Position numbers and translations under genes: made by a program
In this document: piece by piece, positions 1,408 through 24,615 of the stretch
Position numbering within the stretch: the stretch's first letter is position 1
Layout: each line of letters begins with the position of its first letter
Origin: Clostridia bacterium
Lineage (GTDB): Bacteria; Bacillota; Clostridia; Christensenellales; Borkfalkiaceae
Direction of reading: 5' to 3'
Length of the DNA stretch: 64,000 nucleotides
NCBI GenBank assembly: GCA_029059705.1
Contig: JAIDVM010000014.1
Location: 1-64,000 of the forward strand
The notes under the pieces: model-generated
What the model was told of the DNA's origin: nothing
What the model saw: only the letters and a program-made list of their open reading frames with translations
Databases searched by the model: none

Positions 1408-2721
1408 ATGTTTAACGATTTGGGCGGCAATAGCGAAAACGTCATCACCGGAAGAGCTAAAATAAAAGTAATCGGCGTCGGCGGCGCGGGTAACAACGCG
1501 GTCAACAGAATGTTGAGCGCGGGCATAACCAGCGCGGAATATTACGTAGTCAATACCGACAGCCAGATTCTCGCGCTTTCCGCATGCGAAAATAAAATCC
1601 AGATAGGCACCACTCTTACGAAAGGTCTCGGCGCGGGCGCCGACCCCGAAATAGGCAGAGCGGCGGCGGAAGAAAGCAAGGACGTCCTTACCGAAGCGGT
1701 TAAGGGAACCGACCTTTTGTTTATAACCGCGGGCATGGGCGGCGGTACGGGTACCGGCGCGGCTCCCGTAATCGCAAAAATCGCAAGGGATATGAAAATC
1801 CTCACTGTTGCGGTAGTAACCGAGCCTTTCAGCTTCGAGGGCAGAAAGAGAATGGAAAACACCGCAAAGGGGCTTGATAACCTTAAAAAATACGTCGATA
1901 CGTTAATAGTTATTCCCAACGACAAAATCCGCACGGTTGTTGCAAAAAGCACGCCTATGGCGGAGGCTTTGCGCGTTGCCGACGACATTTTAAAGCAGGG
2001 CATAAAGGGCATTGCCGAATTAATCGTAAATCCCTCGCTCATAAACCTCGACTTTGCCGACGTTAAAACCATTTTAAAGGACAAGGGCATAGCTCACCTC
2101 GGCGTGGGCGTTGCCAAGGGCGACAACAGAATTATAGAAGCCGTCCGCGTTGCTGTAAACAGCCCGCTTCTTGAAACGACTATCGAGGGCGCTCGCGGCG
2201 TAATTTTAAACGTTGTGGGCGGACAAGACCTCACGTTTGACGAGGTTGCCGACGCTGCCGAGCTTGTAAAGAGCGTGGTTGACGCCTCCGCGAACATAAT
2301 TTTCGGCGCGCGTATCGACCCCAACGTGCAGGACGAGGTTGAAATAACGGTAATCGCGACGGGCTTCCCCGGTTACGACAACCGCCGCGAAGAGGAGCAA
2401 AAACGCGCGTATAACAACGGCGCGCTCTACGACAACGGCAATTACGGTGGCGGAAATTACGGCAACGGCTATCCCAGAATGTCCGTAAACCAGCCTTATT
2501 ATCCTCCCCAGCAGCCCGCGGCCCCCCAGCCTTATCAGCGCCCCGTTCAGCCTGTGCAACCCGTGCAACCCGTTCAACCGGTTCAGCAGCCCGCGCCCCA
2601 GCAGTATATCCCGCCCCGCGGCGCCGAGCCCGAAAGGGAGATAGAAAGACCTATCGATAAATCCTTGCCCAAATTCGTTGAAAAACTCCGCAACATCGGC
2701 AAGAAAAATAATAACGATTAA
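1408..2721 (+). CDS. ftsZ: cell-division GTPase FtsZ
   Basis: Tubulin-like GTPase that forms the Z ring. VIGVGGAGNNAVNRM at the N-terminus binds nucleotide, the tubulin signature GGGTGTG is near residues 111-117, and NLDFADVKTIL is the synergy (T7) loop that completes the GTPase site of the next subunit. The globular core ends around residue 325 and is followed by a long Tyr/Asn/Pro-rich linker including a tandem PVQ repeat (about residues 380-395), then a basic C-terminal peptide SLPKFVEKLRNIGKK matching the FtsA/SepF/EzrA-binding tail. AACGGAGG 7 bases before the ATG fixes the start. It lies 45 bases after ftsA and shares its promoter. A terminator hairpin follows at 2733. Confidence 0.98.
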   Translation: MFNDLGGNSENVITGRAKIKVIGVGGAGNNAVNRMLSAGITSAEYYVVNTDSQILALSACENKIQIGTTLTKGLGAGADPEIGRAAAEESKDVLTEAVKGTDLLFITAGMGGGTGTGAAPVIAKIARDMKILTVAVVTEPFSFEGRKRMENTAKGLDNLKKYVDTLIVIPNDKIRTVVAKSTPMAEALRVADDILKQGIKGIAELIVNPSLINLDFADVKTILKDKGIAHLGVGVAKGDNRIIEAVRVAVNSPLLETTIEGARGVILNVVGGQDLTFDEVADAAELVKSVVDASANIIFGARIDPNVQDEVEITVIATGFPGYDNRREEEQKRAYNNGALYDNGNYGGGNYGNGYPRMSVNQPYYPPQQPAAPQPYQRPVQPVQPVQPVQPVQQPAPQQYIPPRGAEPEREIERPIDKSLPKFVEKLRNIGKKNNND

Positions 2722-2732
2722 TAATTAAATAA

Positions 2733-2768
2733 AAGAAAAGCGTGCACGTTTCCGTGCACGCTTTTCTT
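2733..2768. terminator. bidirectional terminator between ftsZ and spoVG
   Basis: Perfect 16-bp stem (AAGAAAAGCGTGCACG against its complement) with a four-base loop TTTC. Runs of A on one side and T on the other let it serve both converging genes. Confidence 0.85.
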
Positions 2769-2811
2769 GTTGAATTCAGTATTAATTTAACTCACGAGAA
2801 AACCAAATGAC

Positions 2812-3075
2812 TTATTTTTTAAGTTCGTCATAGTAAGCCGTAAGGATTGCTTGTTTCAAATTTTCTCGGGTCTCGGTATTTAGCGGATGCGCAATATCCT
2901 TATATTCGCCATCATTAGTTTTTCTGCTGGGCATTGCAATAAACGCGCCGTCCGGTGAATCGATAACTTTGATGTCATGCACTACAAAGCAATCGTCAAT
3001 GGTAATCGAAGCCACCGCTTTAAGTTTATTGTCCTCCTTGTTAACTAACCTGATTCGTACATCTGAGATTTTCAT
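2812..3075 (-). CDS. spoVG: SpoVG family RNA/DNA-binding regulator
   Basis: 87-residue protein with the conserved SpoVG core: [11 protein letters not shown], a [22 protein letters not shown] segment and the closing [19 protein letters not shown] helix. SpoVG proteins bind nucleic acid and influence septation, sporulation and gene expression in Bacillota. The length is typical. GGAAGGTGA precedes the ATG. It is monocistronic, convergent with ftsZ, and has its own promoter at 3110-3138. Its presence points to Bacillota but does not prove that the organism sporulates. Confidence 0.95.
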
Positions 3076-3109
3076 GGTTCACCTTCCAGATAATACTTTC
3101 ATTACTTAC

Positions 3110-3138
3110 ATTGTATAATAAAAGATTTGTAATTTCAA
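3110..3138 (-). promoter_or_regulatory. promoter of spoVG
   Basis: Minus-strand TTGAAA (complement of 3133-3138), 17-base spacer, TACAAT (complement of 3110-3115), ending 35 bases upstream of the start codon. The elements look like sigma-A rather than sigma-H. Confidence 0.7.
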
Positions 3139-3222
3139 TAAAAATTTGAAAAATTTTTTATGTTTTTTTCTAAAATTTTCAATTTTCGTGCTATTTCGTC
3201 ATAAATTTTAATAAAATTTAAT

Positions 3223-4545
3223 ATGCAGAAAAGGATTTGGGAAAATTTAAGCAGTTTTTATTTAATAGGCATAGGCGGGGTAAGCATGAGCGGACTTGCA
3301 AAATTTTTACTCGCCAAGGGCAAAACCGTTGCGGGCAGCGACGCGTGCGCGGGCGATTACACCGCCGAGCTTATAAAATCGGGAATTAAAGTAAGCGTTG
3401 GCAACGTTTCCGAAAGTATCGCGGCTTACGACGCGGTAATTTACACCGACGCGATAAGGGAAGACAACCGCCAGCTTGCCGAAGCGAAAAGCCTTAAAAA
3501 AACTATATTCTCGCGCGGGCAGTTTTTATACGAAGTCAGCCGCACGTTTAAAACTGTCGTCGCAGTTTCGGGTTGTCACGGCAAAACTACCTGCACGGCA
3601 ATGCTTGCGCATATATTCTCCGCGGCAAACAAGCAATTCTGCGCGCATATCGGCGGCAGGGATAAAACGTTTTCCAACACTTATTATTGTGGAAATTCCT
3701 ATTTTTTAACCGAAGCGTGCGAATATAAAAAGAATTTCCTTTTGTTAAAGCCAGATATCGGCGTGGTGCTCAATTCCGACGCCGACCATCTGGAATGCTA
3801 CGGCAACAAAGAAAATTTAACAGCCGCCTACCGTCAGTTTTTGTCGGGCGCGGGAGTTTCCGTCGCTCCTTTCGGCGACAAGGTCGCGGGCGGAATAACC
3901 TTCGGTTACAGCAAAAACGCCGATTATCACGCAAAAAACGTAAAATCAATCGGCGGCTTTTACAGCTTTACGGCGTGCGAGGGCGCAAGCGAACTCGGCA
4001 GCATAAAGCTTTCCGTCTACGGCAAACACAACGTTTTAAACGCGCTTGCGGCAATTGCGGTTGCCCGTTCCGCGGGCATACCCTTCAACCTTGCAAAGGA
4101 GGGAATAACAGCCTTTTCGGGTGTGGAGCGCAGGTTCGAAATAATAGGCACGGTAAACGGCGCGCCTGTTATCGCGGATTACGCCCATCACCCCAACGAA
4201 TTGCGCGCAACCATAAAAACCGCAAAAAAGTTGACCTCGGGCAGGCTTTTCGTCGTGTTCCAGCCGCACACCTATTCGCGCACAAAAAATCTGTTTAAAG
4301 ACTTCGTTAAAGCGCTTTCTCCGTTAAACAATCTGTTAATTTACCGCACGTTTGCCGCCCGTGAATACTTCGACGACGCGGGCAGCGCGCTTACGCTTTC
4401 GCAAAGCCTTAAAAAATCGAAATACGCCGACGACCCGCTGAGTTTAAGCGATTATTTTTCGCTCGCAAAGCAAGGGGATACCGTGCTCGTTCTCGGCGCG
4501 GGCGATATCTACGATATCGCAAAGTCCGTTCTCAAAACAATTTAA
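3223..4545 (+). CDS. murC: UDP-N-acetylmuramate--L-alanine ligase
   Basis: Cytoplasmic Mur ligase adding L-Ala to UDP-MurNAc with ATP in peptidoglycan precursor synthesis. The N-terminal Rossmann loop GIGGVSMSGLAKFL, the P-loop GCHGKTTCTAML, the carbamoylated-Lys region EACEYKKNFL, a DADHLECYG metal/nucleotide segment and FQPHTYSRTK in the C-terminal domain are in family order. The 440-residue length is normal. There is no clear Shine-Dalgarno: the preceding bases are very AT-rich, so the mRNA may have a very short leader. It sits between ftsZ and ftsK in an envelope/division cluster. Confidence 0.95.
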   Translation: MQKRIWENLSSFYLIGIGGVSMSGLAKFLLAKGKTVAGSDACAGDYTAELIKSGIKVSVGNVSESIAAYDAVIYTDAIREDNRQLAEAKSLKKTIFSRGQFLYEVSRTFKTVVAVSGCHGKTTCTAMLAHIFSAANKQFCAHIGGRDKTFSNTYYCGNSYFLTEACEYKKNFLLLKPDIGVVLNSDADHLECYGNKENLTAAYRQFLSGAGVSVAPFGDKVAGGITFGYSKNADYHAKNVKSIGGFYSFTACEGASELGSIKLSVYGKHNVLNALAAIAVARSAGIPFNLAKEGITAFSGVERRFEIIGTVNGAPVIADYAHHPNELRATIKTAKKLTSGRLFVVFQPHTYSRTKNLFKDFVKALSPLNNLLIYRTFAAREYFDDAGSALTLSQSLKKSKYADDPLSLSDYFSLAKQGDTVLVLGAGDIYDIAKSVLKTI

Positions 4546-19311: not shown

Positions 19312-19340
19312 TTGACTTGACGGAATTTAAGTTATATACT
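19312..19340 (+). promoter_or_regulatory. promoter of the carAB operon leader
   Basis: TTGACT (19312-19317), 17-base spacer, TATACT (19335-19340). Start site expected near 19347. No other promoter fits between the attenuator (ends 19508) and the carA ATG (19524), so carAB transcripts from here must read through the hairpin. Confidence 0.75.
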
Positions 19341-19370
19341 TAAAAAAGTACGGTTTACGGATAAAAAAAG

Positions 19371-19481
19371 ATGAAAACAATTTTTAAGATTGATTTTGCC
19401 GAAAACGGAATATCCGCACTCGACGGTTTTGATTTAACCGCCAAAAATTGTGATTTTGAAAATATTTTTTTAATTGACTGA
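19371..19481 (+). CDS. 36-residue leader peptide upstream of carA
   Basis: ATG 19371 opens a 36-codon frame (MKTIFKIDFAENG at the start, FENIFLID at the end) within the carAB leader transcript. It contains no Arg codon, which argues against arginine-specific ribosome stalling. The RNA is strikingly U-rich, with seven consecutive T at 19464-19470 just before the stop. The TGA (19479-19481) lies inside the 5' arm of the terminator hairpin at 19476. A ribosome reaching the stop would mask the arm. The Shine-Dalgarno is weak (ACGGAT). Interpretation as a regulatory leader is inference from layout. Confidence 0.6.
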   Translation: MKTIFKIDFAENGISALDGFDLTAKNCDFENIFLID

Positions 19482-19508
19482 TTTATTTTTTAAATCAGTC
19501 TTTATTTT
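19476..19508 (+). terminator. attenuator hairpin before carA
   Basis: Perfect 10-bp stem GACTGATTTA / TAAATCAGTC (19476-19485 and 19491-19500), five-T loop, then TTTATTTT. It lies between the leader ORF and the carA ribosome binding site, overlapping the leader stop codon. Confidence 0.75.
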
Positions 19509-19523
19509 AGTCAGAGGAAAAAA

Positions 19524-20603
19524 ATGAAAAGTAACGTAAAGGCTTATCTTACATTGCAGAACGGAAAACAGTTTCAAGGCTACCGCTTCGGGGCGGAAGG
19601 CGAGGTTTTGGGCGAGCTTGTGTTTACCACGGGCATGACGGGGTATATTGAAACGCTGACCGACCCGAGCTATTACGGGCAGATAGTTACGCAAACCTTT
19701 CCGCTTATCGGCAATTACGGAATGATTGAGAGCGACACGGAAAGCAAAAAGCCGTGGGTTTCGGCTTATATCGTTAGGGAGCTTTGCGAAGAGCCTTCGA
19801 ATTTCAGATGCGAAAAAACGCTTGACAAATATCTTGAAGAAAAGGGAATTGTGGGGCTTTACGGAATCGATACGCGCGAACTGACTAAAATCGTGCGTGA
19901 ATACGGCGTTATGAACGCGAAGATTACGGACAAGCCTTTAAAGGATACGGACGCGCTGTTGAAATATACGGTTAAAAACGCGGTTAAGAGCGTAACCTGC
20001 TCCGAGCCCGAATATCTGGGCGACGAAAAGGGGCTGAAAGTTGTGGTGTGGGACTTCGGCGCTAAGGACAATATCCCCAAAGAGCTTGTAAAGCGTGGTT
20101 GCTATTGCATAAAAGTGCCTTCGTTTTACACGGCGGAGCAAATTCTTGCGCTCAACCCCGACGGACTTATGCTGACGAACGGCCCCGGCGACCCCGCGGA
20201 GAACGTTGAAATTATTGAAAACCTTAAAAAGCTTGCGGGCAAGCTGCCCATTTTCGGGATTTGCCTCGGACATCAGTTGTTTGCGCTTGCGATGGGCGGC
20301 AAGACGATGAAGATGAAGTACGGACACCGCGGCGCAAACCAGCCCGTTAAAAATCTGGAAACGGGCAGGGTTTATATTTCGAGCCAAAACCACGGTTACG
20401 AGGTTATCGCTTCGAGCCTGCACGGCGTTGGGAAGTTGAGTTATATAAACGCGAACGACGGCACCTGTGAGGGCTTCGATTATCCCGAGCTGAACGCTTA
20501 TACCGTGCAGTTCCATCCCGAAGCTTGCGGCGGCCCGCAGGATTGTTCGTTTCTTTTCGACAGATTTATAAACAATATGAAAGGAGGCAAGTTCAATGCC
20601 TAA
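19524..20603 (+). CDS. carA: carbamoyl-phosphate synthase small subunit
   Basis: Glutaminase subunit that supplies ammonia to CarB for carbamoyl phosphate, the precursor of pyrimidines and arginine. The N-terminal CPSase small-chain domain (LTLQNGKQFQGYRFG, VFTTGMTGYIETLTDPSY) is followed by a class I amidotransferase with nucleophile Cys in FGICLGHQLFALAMGG and His/Glu in QFHPEACGGP. The 359-residue length is typical. AGAGGAAA precedes the ATG. It overlaps carB by 8 bases. Confidence 0.97.
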   Translation: MKSNVKAYLTLQNGKQFQGYRFGAEGEVLGELVFTTGMTGYIETLTDPSYYGQIVTQTFPLIGNYGMIESDTESKKPWVSAYIVRELCEEPSNFRCEKTLDKYLEEKGIVGLYGIDTRELTKIVREYGVMNAKITDKPLKDTDALLKYTVKNAVKSVTCSEPEYLGDEKGLKVVVWDFGAKDNIPKELVKRGCYCIKVPSFYTAEQILALNPDGLMLTNGPGDPAENVEIIENLKKLAGKLPIFGICLGHQLFALAMGGKTMKMKYGHRGANQPVKNLETGRVYISSQNHGYEVIASSLHGVGKLSYINANDGTCEGFDYPELNAYTVQFHPEACGGPQDCSFLFDRFINNMKGGKFNA

Positions 20604-23600
20604 GAGAGAAGATATAAGAAAGGTGCTTGTAATAGGTTCGGGCCCCATAGTTATAGGACAGGCGGCGGAATTCGATTATGCGGGCGCGCAGGCGTGCCGT
20701 GTTTTAAAGGACGCAGGCGTGAACGTGGTTTTGTGCAACAGCAACCCCGCTACGATTATGACCGACAAGGCGCTTGCCGACGAAATTTATCTGGAGCCGC
20801 TGACGGTTGATACCATTAAAAGAATTATTATAAAAGAGCGCCCCGACAGCCTGCTTGCGTCTTTGGGCGGGCAGACGGGCTTGACTTTGGGTTGCCAGCT
20901 TGCCAAATCGGGCTTTTTGGACGAGTACGGCGTTAAGCTTATCGGCGTTAATCTGGAATCGATAGACAGAGCCGAGGACAGAGAGCTGTTTAAAGAAACA
21001 ATGCAGAAGATTAACCAGCCCGTAGTGCCCTCGGACATAGCTTATACGGTTGACGAGTGCGTGGCGATTGCCGAAAAAATAGGTTATCCCGTAATAGTAA
21101 GACCGGCATACACGCTCGGCGGCGCGGGCGGCGGCGTTGCGAAGGACGAAAAGGAGCTTAGGGTTATTTCCAACAACGGACTTATGCTTTCGCCCATTAC
21201 GCAGGTTTTGATTGAAAAGTATATAGGCGGGTGGAAGGAAATCGAGTTCGAGGTGCTGCGCGACGGCGCGGGCAACGTTTTGACGGTTTGCTCGATGGAA
21301 AACTTTGACCCCGTGGGCATACATACGGGTGATTCGATTGTAATTGCGCCCGCCGTTACCCTTTCGGACAAGGAATATCAGATGTTGAGAACGGCTTCGC
21401 TGGATATTATAAGCGAGCTGAAAATCGAGGGCGGGTGCAACTGCCAGTTTGCGCTTAATCCCGACTCGTTCGAGTATTCGGTAATAGAGGTCAACCCGAG
21501 AGTTTCGCGCTCGTCGGCGCTGGCTTCCAAAGCTACGGGGTATCCCATTGCAAAGGTTGCAACGAAAATCGCGCTCGGTTATACCTTGGACGAGATTAAA
21601 AACGACGTTACGGGCAAGACCTACGCGTGCTTCGAGCCGACGCTCGATTACGTTGTTGTCAAGCTTCCCAAATGGCCGTTTGACAAGTTCCTTTATGCAA
21701 AAAGAAACCTTGGCACGCGCATGAAGGCGACGGGCGAGGTTATGGCAATCGGTACTAACTTCGAAACGGCGATAATGAAGGCGGTGCGCGGCGCGGAAAT
21801 TTCGACGGGTACGCTCAATTTGCCCAAAATTGCCGAGCTTTCGGACGAGGAAATTTACGCAAGACTTTCGGAAATGACGGACGAAAGGCTGTTTATCGTT
21901 TATCAGGCGTTAAAGCGCGGGGTTTCGGTTGACGAAATTTATGAAATAACGAAGATTGACGAGTGGTTTTTGAACAAGCTTAAAAACCTTTGCGACTTCG
22001 AGGCGGAAATCGCGGGCAAAGCGATTACGAGAGAGCAATATTTAAAGGGTAAAAAGCTTGGCTATCCCGACAAAGAAATGGAAAAATTTTCGGGCAACAA
22101 GCTGCCCGCGCACCGCGACGCGGTGTTTAAGATGGTTGATACGTGCGGCGCGGAATTTGCGGCGCAGACGCCTTATTTTTATTCCACCTACGACGAAAAG
22201 GAGCACGACGAGGCAAAGCCCTTTGTTGACAGAAGCACCAAAAAACGCATTGTGGTTATAGGCTCCGGCCCCATAAGAATTGGACAGGGGATTGAGTTCG
22301 ATTATTCCTCGGTGCATTGCGTTTGGTCGTTAAAGCGGCTGGGCTATGAAGTTATTATTATAAATAACAACCCCGAAACCGTTTCCACAGACTTCGATAC
22401 GGCGGACAGGCTTTATTTCGAGGCGCTCACTCCCGAGGACGTGCAAAACGTTTTGAACGTTGAAAAGCCCTACGGCGTGGTAATAACCTTTGGCGGGCAG
22501 ACGGCAATTAAGCTGTGCAGTTATCTTTATAAAAAGGGTGTGCGTATTTTGGGAACGCCCGCCGACAGCGTTGACCTTGCCGAGGACAGAGAAAGGTTTG
22601 ACGAGCTTTTGGAGCAGTTTGGAATTACGCGCCCCAAGGGTGTGACCGTAATGAGCAAGGCGGACGCCGTAAAGGCGGCGGAGAAGCTGGGCTATCCCGT
22701 GTTGCTGCGCCCCTCATACGTAATAGGCGGGCAGAATATGACCATAGCCTTTACGCAGAACGACATAGAAAGGTATATGGACGTAATACTTGCGCAAAAG
22801 ATTGAAAACCCCGTTTTGTGCGACAAGTATTTAATGGGCACTGAGCTTGAAGTTGACGCTATTTCGGACGGCGTGGACGTGCTTATTCCCGGAATTATGC
22901 AGCACATAGAGCGCGCGGGTGTGCATAGCGGCGACTCGATTGCCGTTTATCCGCCCTATAATCTGAGCGACGCGATGCTGAAAAAGGTTGTGGACATTTC
23001 AACAAAGCTTGCAATTTCGTTAAAGACGAAGGGCTTAATAAACATTCAGTATCTTATTTACAGAAACGAGCTTTACGTAATAGAGGTGAACCCGAGGGCT
23101 TCGAGGACTATTCCCTATATTTCCAAGGTTACGGGAGTGCCCATGGTTGACCTTGCGACAAAAATTTTGATGGGCGCAAAGCTGAAAAGGCTGGGCTACG
23201 GCACGGGGCTTTACCCCGCATCGCCCTACGTTGCGGTTAAGGTGCCCGTGTTCTCGTTTGAAAAACTCAACGACGTGAACTCGCAGCTCGGCCCCGAAAT
23301 GAAGTCCACGGGCGAGGTTTTGGGAATAGGCAAAACCATTGAAGAGGCGCTTTATAAGGGGCTTGTTTCGGCGGGCTTTAACATGCGCACTTCCACCAAA
23401 AACCGCCCAGCGGGAATTTATTTCACCATAAACGACCAGGATAAGTTCGAAATCGTAAATATAGTTAAAAAGTTTGCCGATTTGGGGCTTAACCTTTACG
23501 CCACGACGGGCACGGCGAACGTAATAAGAAGTCTCGGGCTCGAATGCACGGAGGTTGCAAGGCTTTCCTCAAACGAAGAGATATTCAAGCTGATGGACGA

Positions 23601-24615
23601 GGGAAAAATAGATTACGTCGTTTACACCGGCAAGACGGACGTTGAGTCAATATCCAACTATATAAGTTTGCACCACCATGCAATTTTACTTGGTATAACC
23701 GTTTTGACTTCGCTTGATACCACCAACGCGCTTGCGGACTGCATTGCGGGGCGGTATAACCAGTTTAACACCGAGCTTGTGGACATAAACAATTTGAGAA
23801 AGGAAAAACTTAAGCTTAAATTTTCGAAGATGCACAGCTGCGGAAACGATTATATTTTCTTCAACAACATGGACGGCGCGATAACCTGCCCCGAATCGAT
23901 TGCGATTAACTTTGCCGACAGACATTACGCAATCGGCGGCGACGGCGTAGTTATGATTGAAAAATCGAGCGTGGGTGCGGCAAAGGTAAACGTTTATAAC
24001 CGCGACGGAAGTCTTTCGGGACTTGCGGCAAACCCCATAAGGTGCGTTGCGAAGTATCTCTTTGACAACGGTTATGCGAGCGGGGAAATGAGCATTGAAA
24101 CATGCTGCGGCGTGAAAAAGCTTAGCGTAAGCTCGTTCAACGGCAAGGCAAGCTCGGTTTTATTGAATTTGGGAAAGCCCGAGCTTGATAAAAAACGCGC
24201 CGAAAAGATTGTTTACGACGGAAAGGAATTCAACGCCTATTACGTAAACGTCGGCAACCCGCATTGCGTAATTTTCTGCGACAAGGTTGAAAGCGTGGAT
24301 ATGGACGCATTGGGGCAAGCGGTTATTGAATCGAATTTATTTCCGCAAGGCGTGTTTGTGGAGTGCGTTAGGGTGGTAAACCACGTTACCGTTAAGATGC
24401 GCGTTTGGGAAAAGAATAACGGCGAAACGTGGGCGTGCGGCACGGCGGCTGCCGCGGCGGCGGTTGCCTCGGTTGCGAACGGTTATTGCGCTTACGGCGA
24501 AATCGTTACGGTTAAACTGAAAGGCGGCGACTTGTTCGTTAAATATGAAAAGGACGGCGAAATCGAGCTGGACGGCACGGTTAAGCTGTCGTTTGAGGGG
24601 TCAATCGAAATTTAA
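20596..24615 (+). CDS. carB: carbamoyl-phosphate synthase large subunit fused to a DapF-like domain
   Basis: Residues 1-1065 are a complete CarB: two ATP-grasp halves (GSGPIVIGQAAEFDYAGAQ and GSGPIRIGQGIEFDYSSVH start each half; EVNPRVSRSSALASK and EVNPRASRTIPYISK are the metal/ATP sites) and the C-terminal allosteric methylglyoxal-synthase-like domain. Without a stop, residues about 1072-1339 form a diaminopimelate epimerase fold: FSKMHSCGNDYIFF, ADRHYAIGGDGVV, VNVGNPHCVIF and TWACGTAAAA. CarB alone is normally near 1065 residues. In the DapF part the motif normally M-C-G-N-G-I-R-C reads LAANPIRC, so the first catalytic Cys is Ala (residue 1144), while the second (Cys in WACGT, near 1281) is kept. 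GGAGG sets the ATG. nifS follows with a one-base overlap. Confidence 0.93.
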   Translation: MPKREDIRKVLVIGSGPIVIGQAAEFDYAGAQACRVLKDAGVNVVLCNSNPATIMTDKALADEIYLEPLTVDTIKRIIIKERPDSLLASLGGQTGLTLGCQLAKSGFLDEYGVKLIGVNLESIDRAEDRELFKETMQKINQPVVPSDIAYTVDECVAIAEKIGYPVIVRPAYTLGGAGGGVAKDEKELRVISNNGLMLSPITQVLIEKYIGGWKEIEFEVLRDGAGNVLTVCSMENFDPVGIHTGDSIVIAPAVTLSDKEYQMLRTASLDIISELKIEGGCNCQFALNPDSFEYSVIEVNPRVSRSSALASKATGYPIAKVATKIALGYTLDEIKNDVTGKTYACFEPTLDYVVVKLPKWPFDKFLYAKRNLGTRMKATGEVMAIGTNFETAIMKAVRGAEISTGTLNLPKIAELSDEEIYARLSEMTDERLFIVYQALKRGVSVDEIYEITKIDEWFLNKLKNLCDFEAEIAGKAITREQYLKGKKLGYPDKEMEKFSGNKLPAHRDAVFKMVDTCGAEFAAQTPYFYSTYDEKEHDEAKPFVDRSTKKRIVVIGSGPIRIGQGIEFDYSSVHCVWSLKRLGYEVIIINNNPETVSTDFDTADRLYFEALTPEDVQNVLNVEKPYGVVITFGGQTAIKLCSYLYKKGVRILGTPADSVDLAEDRERFDELLEQFGITRPKGVTVMSKADAVKAAEKLGYPVLLRPSYVIGGQNMTIAFTQNDIERYMDVILAQKIENPVLCDKYLMGTELEVDAISDGVDVLIPGIMQHIERAGVHSGDSIAVYPPYNLSDAMLKKVVDISTKLAISLKTKGLINIQYLIYRNELYVIEVNPRASRTIPYISKVTGVPMVDLATKILMGAKLKRLGYGTGLYPASPYVAVKVPVFSFEKLNDVNSQLGPEMKSTGEVLGIGKTIEEALYKGLVSAGFNMRTSTKNRPAGIYFTINDQDKFEIVNIVKKFADLGLNLYATTGTANVIRSLGLECTEVARLSSNEEIFKLMDEGKIDYVVYTGKTDVESISNYISLHHHAILLGITVLTSLDTTNALADCIAGRYNQFNTELVDINNLRKEKLKLKFSKMHSCGNDYIFFNNMDGAITCPESIAINFADRHYAIGGDGVVMIEKSSVGAAKVNVYNRDGSLSGLAANPIRCVAKYLFDNGYASGEMSIETCCGVKKLSVSSFNGKASSVLLNLGKPELDKKRAEKIVYDGKEFNAYYVNVGNPHCVIFCDKVESVDMDALGQAVIESNLFPQGVFVECVRVVNHVTVKMRVWEKNNGETWACGTAAAAAAVASVANGYCAYGEIVTVKLKGGDLFVKYEKDGEIELDGTVKLSFEGSIEI

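Follow-up and report, generated by a model that had tools for sequence, protein, structure and literature searches.

The window analysed here is a stretch of 64,000 nucleotides from an assembly (1.51 Mb, 96% complete) whose genus, of the Coproplasma type, consists of uncultured Clostridia from the gut and is referred to below as g1. It contains carA and a carB gene with an additional domain, and a leader region precedes carA. The features and the basis of their assignment are as follows.

19312-19340, forward strand: promoter of the sigma-70 type, TTGACT-17-TATACT (sequence and promoter layout in relatives)
19371-19481, forward strand: putative leader ORF of 36 codons with its TGA inside the hairpin (frame also open in relatives)
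19424-19440, forward strand: weak candidate pause hairpin, CGGTT..AACCG (stem counts in g1 leaders)
19465-19471, forward strand: U7 tract, a candidate UTP-sensitive pause (sequence)
19476-19500, forward strand: terminator-like hairpin GACTGATTTA-TTTTT-TAAATCAGTC with the stop codon in its 5' arm (sequence, fold and pairing)
19501-19508, forward strand: U tract TTTATTTT of the predicted terminator (sequence; the tail seen most often in g1 is TTT[AC]TTTTA)
19513-19517, forward strand: Shine-Dalgarno sequence of carA, AGAGG (sequence)
19524-20603, forward strand: carA, with its ATG at 19524 (Pfam CPSase_sm_chain and GATase)
20596-24615, forward strand: carB, continuing in frame into a diaminopimelate epimerase domain (Pfam)

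The carB-DapF fusion protein has 1339 aa. Where related loci have both parts, the fusion and its linker are kept in every case (12 of 12).

A sequence-only reading of this DNA had described a promoter, a 36-codon leader ORF, a 10-bp hairpin, a U tract and the carA ribosome binding site in that order, and all of them are found as stated. The leader peptide would be MKTIFKIDFAENGISALDGFDLTAKNCDFENIFLID*, and its 36 codons include no Arg codon, as had been claimed. The TGA at 19479-19481 lies within the 5' arm of the 10-bp hairpin, and the seven consecutive U reported before the stop codon are present as a T7 run that ends 7 nt upstream of the TGA. The local fold at the hairpin is -12.1 kcal/mol (z -6.0), and none of 200 shuffles was as stable, with the stem being AU-rich and having three GC pairs. 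The window's copy of the candidate pause hairpin also has only three GC pairs. On its own, the promoter is at chance level (1 found, 1.8 expected in shuffles), and its support comes from the recurrence of the layout in relatives and not from the window sequence alone. The Shine-Dalgarno sequence of the leader ORF is poor, at -3.3 kcal/mol against a shuffled mean of -4.5. No Rfam family exceeded its threshold at the element.

Bacillota are thought to control their pyrimidine genes via PyrR, with transcription running ahead of translation. PyrR above the family cut-off was present in 0 of 37 genomes of g1. Among the 61 genomes searched, 15 had it, all of them among the 24 from other families of the order, and the sub-threshold matches resemble other phosphoribosyltransferases. 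The PyrR element RF00515, searched at E up to 1e-3 with stricter filters in force, was likewise absent from the 37 genus genomes, and 7 of the 24 others matched. The sequence-only reading had seen no PyrR-type element before carA, and the window segment indeed gave no RF00515 match up to E 10. A PyrR-RNA attenuator was rejected because neither PyrR nor RF00515 was found in any of the 37 genus genomes, nor RF00515 in the window segment.

The window genome retains the genes pyrB-pyrC-pyrF-pyrK-orf-pyrD (names from translations by inspection) and gave no match to argB. Its two OTCase-domain proteins are pyrB and a divergent paralogue, and the argF-class copy of about 175 bits, the class found beside carA in arg-type genomes, is missing. 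Because the pyr genes are kept and both the argB match and the argF-class copy are missing, carAB in this genome probably serves pyrimidines. The divergent carbamoyltransferase-like protein (L382, positions 2364-3338; 324 aa, OTCase_N) is kept in the window genome and in most leader-type relatives. A promoter, a hairpin and a T tract also stand before pyrB in 15 of 16 g1 operons read (L381, positions 4190-4314 on contig C2 of the same genome, and L395-L413). These pyrB hairpins with their T tracts mostly read ..CCGCTTTTTTTCTGCC and are preceded by short ORFs of variable length, and by its sequence the pyrB upstream element is a candidate for a second, differently built attenuator in this genus without PyrR.

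We looked for the carA hairpin across g1. When the stem was required to be exact and the loop left free, 53 of 93 genomes matched, with one copy each except in G085, where it lies on two contig ends, and a reversed-pattern control gave no match. An exact search misses stem variants, so the junctions were read directly. Gene searches found argB in 58 and carA in 79 of the 93 genomes. Of 56 argB junctions fetched, one ends at a contig end past the 5' arm and was excluded; in all 55 complete junctions, the hairpin with its U-rich tail stands right at the stop codon of argB. Stem variants such as GGCTGA and GACTGG stay paired through G-U, and in some argB copies the stop codon sits 3-9 nt upstream, so that the 5' arm is non-coding. 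By our own reading of the search results, 51 of the 58 genomes with argB have carA downstream of it on one contig and strand, and the remaining seven look split by contig ends. The arrangement is an argB-argD-argF-carAB operon with the hairpin at the argB stop, in mid operon. Where no full argB match was found, the hairpin stands directly before carA in 19 of 22 regions; in the other three, argF precedes carA and the hairpin is missing. The element predates the carA leader, and in most of the genus the hairpin is at the argB stop. Since this hairpin is found at the end of argB within the arg-car operon, argB appears from the sequences to stand in for the short leader ORF in the arginine-making relatives.

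A scan for the same element found 86 stretches. The carriers are Candidatus Coproplasma species or uncultured gut Clostridia, with the exception of 21 of the 80 loci listed, which belong to other organisms (Bacteroidota, Bacillus and others). We read these 21 as unrelated terminators because no arg or car gene could be recognised from the ORF ends next to them.

In two more genera of the family, g28 and g27, this hairpin is likewise found before carA, again with a short ORF that ends at GAC-TGA in the stem. In g28, promoter, leader ORF and hairpin are present in 17 of 20 carA regions read, and argF precedes the other three. In g27, the leader element was found in 2 of 19 regions (L326 and L340); 12 of the carA genes follow argF, and five (G461, G490, G498, G518 and G538) have neither leader, hairpin nor argF before them. 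At argB loci of g27, g28, g29, g128 and g131, the hairpin is at the stop in 33 of 35, with the stop codon within the stem as GAC-TGA or GGC-TGA; L367 differs in that its stop lies 14 nt upstream, and the stem of L257 is weak. The argB loci without the hairpin in G351 and G449 come from g28 genomes that have carA elsewhere behind its own leader. The hairpin is also missing at argB in G407, G418 and G454, which are g28 genomes of the same arrangement, and in G461. Altogether, argB that is not linked to carAB is without the element in all six genomes of this kind, which belong to genera where it is otherwise present. Among 23 argB junctions of other families read by eye, none has a stop codon in a hairpin with a U tract; in L275 and L285 a hairpin is present further downstream of argB. 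Because other-family junctions and unlinked argB copies are without it, the element looks, by sequence, to have arisen within the family and to accompany carAB. A strict rule that a shared argB-carA operon has the hairpin was rejected, as two g26 genomes and G055, of another family, have the operon without it.

The leader ORF and the hairpin, which the sequence-only reading had proposed to look for in close relatives, recur in relatives, and the stop position and promoter layout are kept. Among 38 carA leader elements, a TTGAC promoter with a 17-18 bp spacer lies upstream of the leader ATG in 35, at a distance of 8-57 nt (8-30 nt in all but one). No promoter was matched in L286; its ORF has 98 codons when counted from the longest start and 39 from the promoter-proximal ATG. 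The leader of L150 (G022) is unreadable because the contig end is too close, and L123 is cut after 16 nt. In 36 of the 37 readable leaders, the frame of the in-stem TGA is open from an ATG, which we chose as the furthest in frame; in the exception, L142, a ribosome would stop 4 nt earlier. Apart from that of L142, the stop offsets of the carA leaders were assigned from the hairpin, and the open frame is what was observed. In shuffled promoter-to-hairpin sequences of 35 leaders, an ORF as long arose with a mean probability of 0.005, and each of the other two frames stays open over this length in 2 of the 36 leaders. The Shine-Dalgarno sequences reach -4 kcal/mol or better in 17 of 17 g28 leaders and are weak in g1 (6 of 17).

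The leader peptides are not conserved, and in five pairs of leaders the substitutions fall on all codon positions alike, as is expected if translation matters and the peptide does not. Sensing by a nascent peptide is disfavored by the same even spread. Attenuation through arginine codons was rejected, since the window leader has none and the others have few and unconserved ones. A motif [AG]ACGG lies 40-95 nt before the hairpin in 22 of 37 carA leaders, against 3.2 expected in shuffles, a count that may be inflated by kinship because related leaders are not independent; it also occurs at the matching place in argB.

Two sister leaders, L142 and L143 (G096 and G097), are a recognisable 3' remnant of argB, with E values of 0.0013 and 0.059 by protein HMM and 3.7e-4 and 4.6e-3 by DNA HMM. 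Profile-profile comparison of the remaining leaders gave no match, and an argB ancestry of all leaders is unsupported because only these two exceed shuffles. In a carA tree, the argB-type genomes are basal in the genus and the leader label needs eight changes, at least two of which are forced by strongly supported branches; it is a quick tree in which 16 of 52 inner branches are weak. It is possible, if rather doubtful as a whole, that argB acts as the full-length leader ORF of the attenuator, that upon loss of arginine synthesis short ORFs take over the same stop, mostly unrelated to argB and in one lineage as its remnant, that the terminator stays with carAB, and that the stem binds an extra factor.

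The pairing of the stem was examined in 42 distinct arm pairs; L123, L352, L374, L256, L257 and L261 were left out by the arm parser. In total, 90.0% of stem cells pair, against 86.7% in shuffles (0 of 500 as high), and when the arms are slid by 1-3 columns at most 43.9% do. There were 21 cells with changes on both sides, whereas shuffles gave 5.8 and none of the 500 had as many. Four pairs have a both-side change, a count that is not decisive because 40 of 500 shuffles reach it. The stem pairing shows covariation. Within g1 alone, the 18 aligned carA leaders share ten identical pairs without covariation.

The core pairs C-G, U-A/U-G, G-C and A-U/G-U are paired in all 42 arm pairs, which span six genera, and C-G and G-C are unchanged in all of them. 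Those g1 argB copies that have their stop 3-9 nt upstream, and hence a non-coding 5' arm, share this near-invariance. A pyrBI-type model does not by itself require such a fixed stem sequence. A trans-acting factor, either an RNA-binding protein or an sRNA, that recognises the stem and controls termination in place of PyrR would account for the fixed core, also where the arm is non-coding. The loop, however, varies freely in sequence and from 0 to 10 nt in length, a dedicated factor would serve a single site since there is usually one copy per genome, and no candidate factor has been identified, so that we consider a trans-acting factor distinctly unlikely. The near-perfect palindrome of fixed sequence may also recall a DNA operator for a repressor. 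This is hardly credible, because the distance between the half-sites differs by as much as 10 bp, many changes retain RNA pairing through G-U, the U tract is on one side only, and the orientation to the gene is fixed.

In the leaders, the T content before the hairpin is 0.42, against 0.33 at g1 argB ends. Runs of at least five U occur in 16 of 18 g1 leaders (0.89) and 16 of 17 g28 leaders (0.94), and in 0.34 and 0.35 of the respective mononucleotide shuffles. The excess is only modest because 0.63 of T-matched 60-nt pieces of the window also contain such a run, and after this composition matching we lowered the weight of the U runs as proof of UTP sensing. At g1 argB ends, such runs are found in 0.16 against 0.11 expected. 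Since the argB type shows little U-run excess, UTP sensing may be a property of the leader type only. A stem with at least four GC pairs upstream of the hairpin is found in 8 of 18 g1 leaders (1.5 expected), and this is not general in g28 (5 of 17, 3.8 expected). UTP is suggested as the signal of the carAB attenuator by its anatomy and the pathway, and the U-rich leaders and the loss of the arginine pathway fit UTP sensing.

Alternatively, the attenuator might read the general translation status or arginine, with poor translation of argB or the leader letting the terminator form. The location of the argB type in an arginine operon and its scarcity of U runs point in this direction. We regard it as very unlikely, however, since the leaders have no conserved Arg codons, argB separated from carAB does not keep the element, and the leader-type window genome has neither an argB match nor an argF-class copy.

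The main rival is a constitutive partial terminator, weak and AU-rich, which in uncoupled Bacillota would lower downstream expression and set the ratio of gene products irrespective of the ribosome. In PMC7858274 and PMC13323073, B. subtilis or Bacillota are described as uncoupled and their terminators as lying close behind stop codons, usually by only a few nt according to PMC7858274. The three GC pairs of the stem and the mid-operon position at argB agree with this explanation. Against it, a short ORF that ends in the stem and has an unrelated peptide reappears after the arginine genes are lost, and a plain terminator needs none. Furthermore, the stop codon is placed exactly at GAC-TGA in the stem, whereas ordinary terminators begin 10-23 nt past the stop, a background that is small (5 found in 63 ORFs of the window genome and 3 in a second sample). 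We therefore consider a partial terminator unlikely.

We consider it slightly more probable than otherwise that the element attenuates the transcription of carAB by coupling it to translation, in the manner of pyrBI. In enterobacteria, pyrBI has a promoter, the short leader ORF pyrL, a U-rich tract and an overlapping terminator. The carA element has counterparts of all of these, the U-rich tract as a candidate pause site and the terminator as a predicted one, and likewise precedes a pyrimidine-pathway operon, a likeness drawn from sequence; its leaders run into the terminator region, and the ORF end appears to overlap the terminator. It differs in that it is found in Bacillota, belongs to carAB and not pyrBI, has its stop codon always at one position of the 5' arm, keeps a near-invariant stem and, in relatives, has full-length argB in the position of the leader. 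The sequences establish its anatomy, conservation, base pairing and linkage to carAB and the absence of PyrR from the genus; we infer termination, translation of the leader, masking by the ribosome and the UTP signal. RNA polymerase would start at the promoter, read the leader ORF and the U-rich stretch and then reach the intrinsic terminator. With plentiful UTP, the polymerase would outpace the ribosome, the hairpin would form, and transcription would stop before carA. With scarce UTP, the polymerase would pause in the U-rich stretch and the leading ribosome would catch up; standing at the TGA, it would cover the 5' arm and transcription would pass into carAB. In the arginine-making relatives, argB occupies the position of the leader ORF in the operon.

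The pyrBI-like interpretation of the sequence-only reading is supported in part, by the recurrence of the layout with unrelated peptides in three genera and by the lack of PyrR in the genus; it had missed the older argB-type form of the element and the near-invariant stem. We count against the model the poor Shine-Dalgarno sequence of the window leader, the modest U-run excess and its near absence in the argB type, the description of Bacillota as uncoupled, the invariant stem core, the argB..carA operons without a hairpin and the five g27 carA genes that have neither leader, hairpin nor argF.

Other known systems are less similar. PyrR-dependent pyr attenuators (RF00515) also have a terminator before pyrimidine genes; the present genus is unlike them in having no match to PyrR or to that element. 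The trp and his leader-peptide attenuators share a short leader ORF before a terminator, with translation being inferred here, but the carA leader has no run of regulatory codons and its stop lies inside the terminator stem. In the fungal arginine attenuator peptide, an upstream ORF precedes the carA homologue and the nascent peptide is the sensor. The upstream ORF before a gene for the small subunit of carbamoyl-phosphate synthase is common to both, whereas the leader peptides of the Clostridia are not conserved. According to PMC4824070, pyrBI has a 135-bp leader gene and pausing underlies its steep relation, an E. coli terminator a few bp past a stop codon is almost fully repressed by the ribosome, for which pyrBI depends on pausing, and amino-acid leader-peptide attenuators have their stop more than 20 bp from the terminator. 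Leader peptides are described as hardly known in Firmicutes, with a his leader proposed for Bacilli (PMC2965389), and E. coli carAB is controlled at its promoters (PMC6245113). A literature search that covered mostly titles and the openings of abstracts, and few subscription journals, did not bring up any description of a leader-ORF attenuator upstream of carAB in Clostridia.

The family offers a natural series in which the same terminator stands behind argB, behind a remnant of argB or behind short, unrelated ORFs, and the need for translation into the stem is therefore directly testable. In uncoupled Bacillota, UTP-dependent pausing might restore coupling locally. If the element depends on the ribosome, it would be a case, before carAB and in a genus of Clostridia that has no PyrR, of coupling set up at a single site, perhaps through such pausing.
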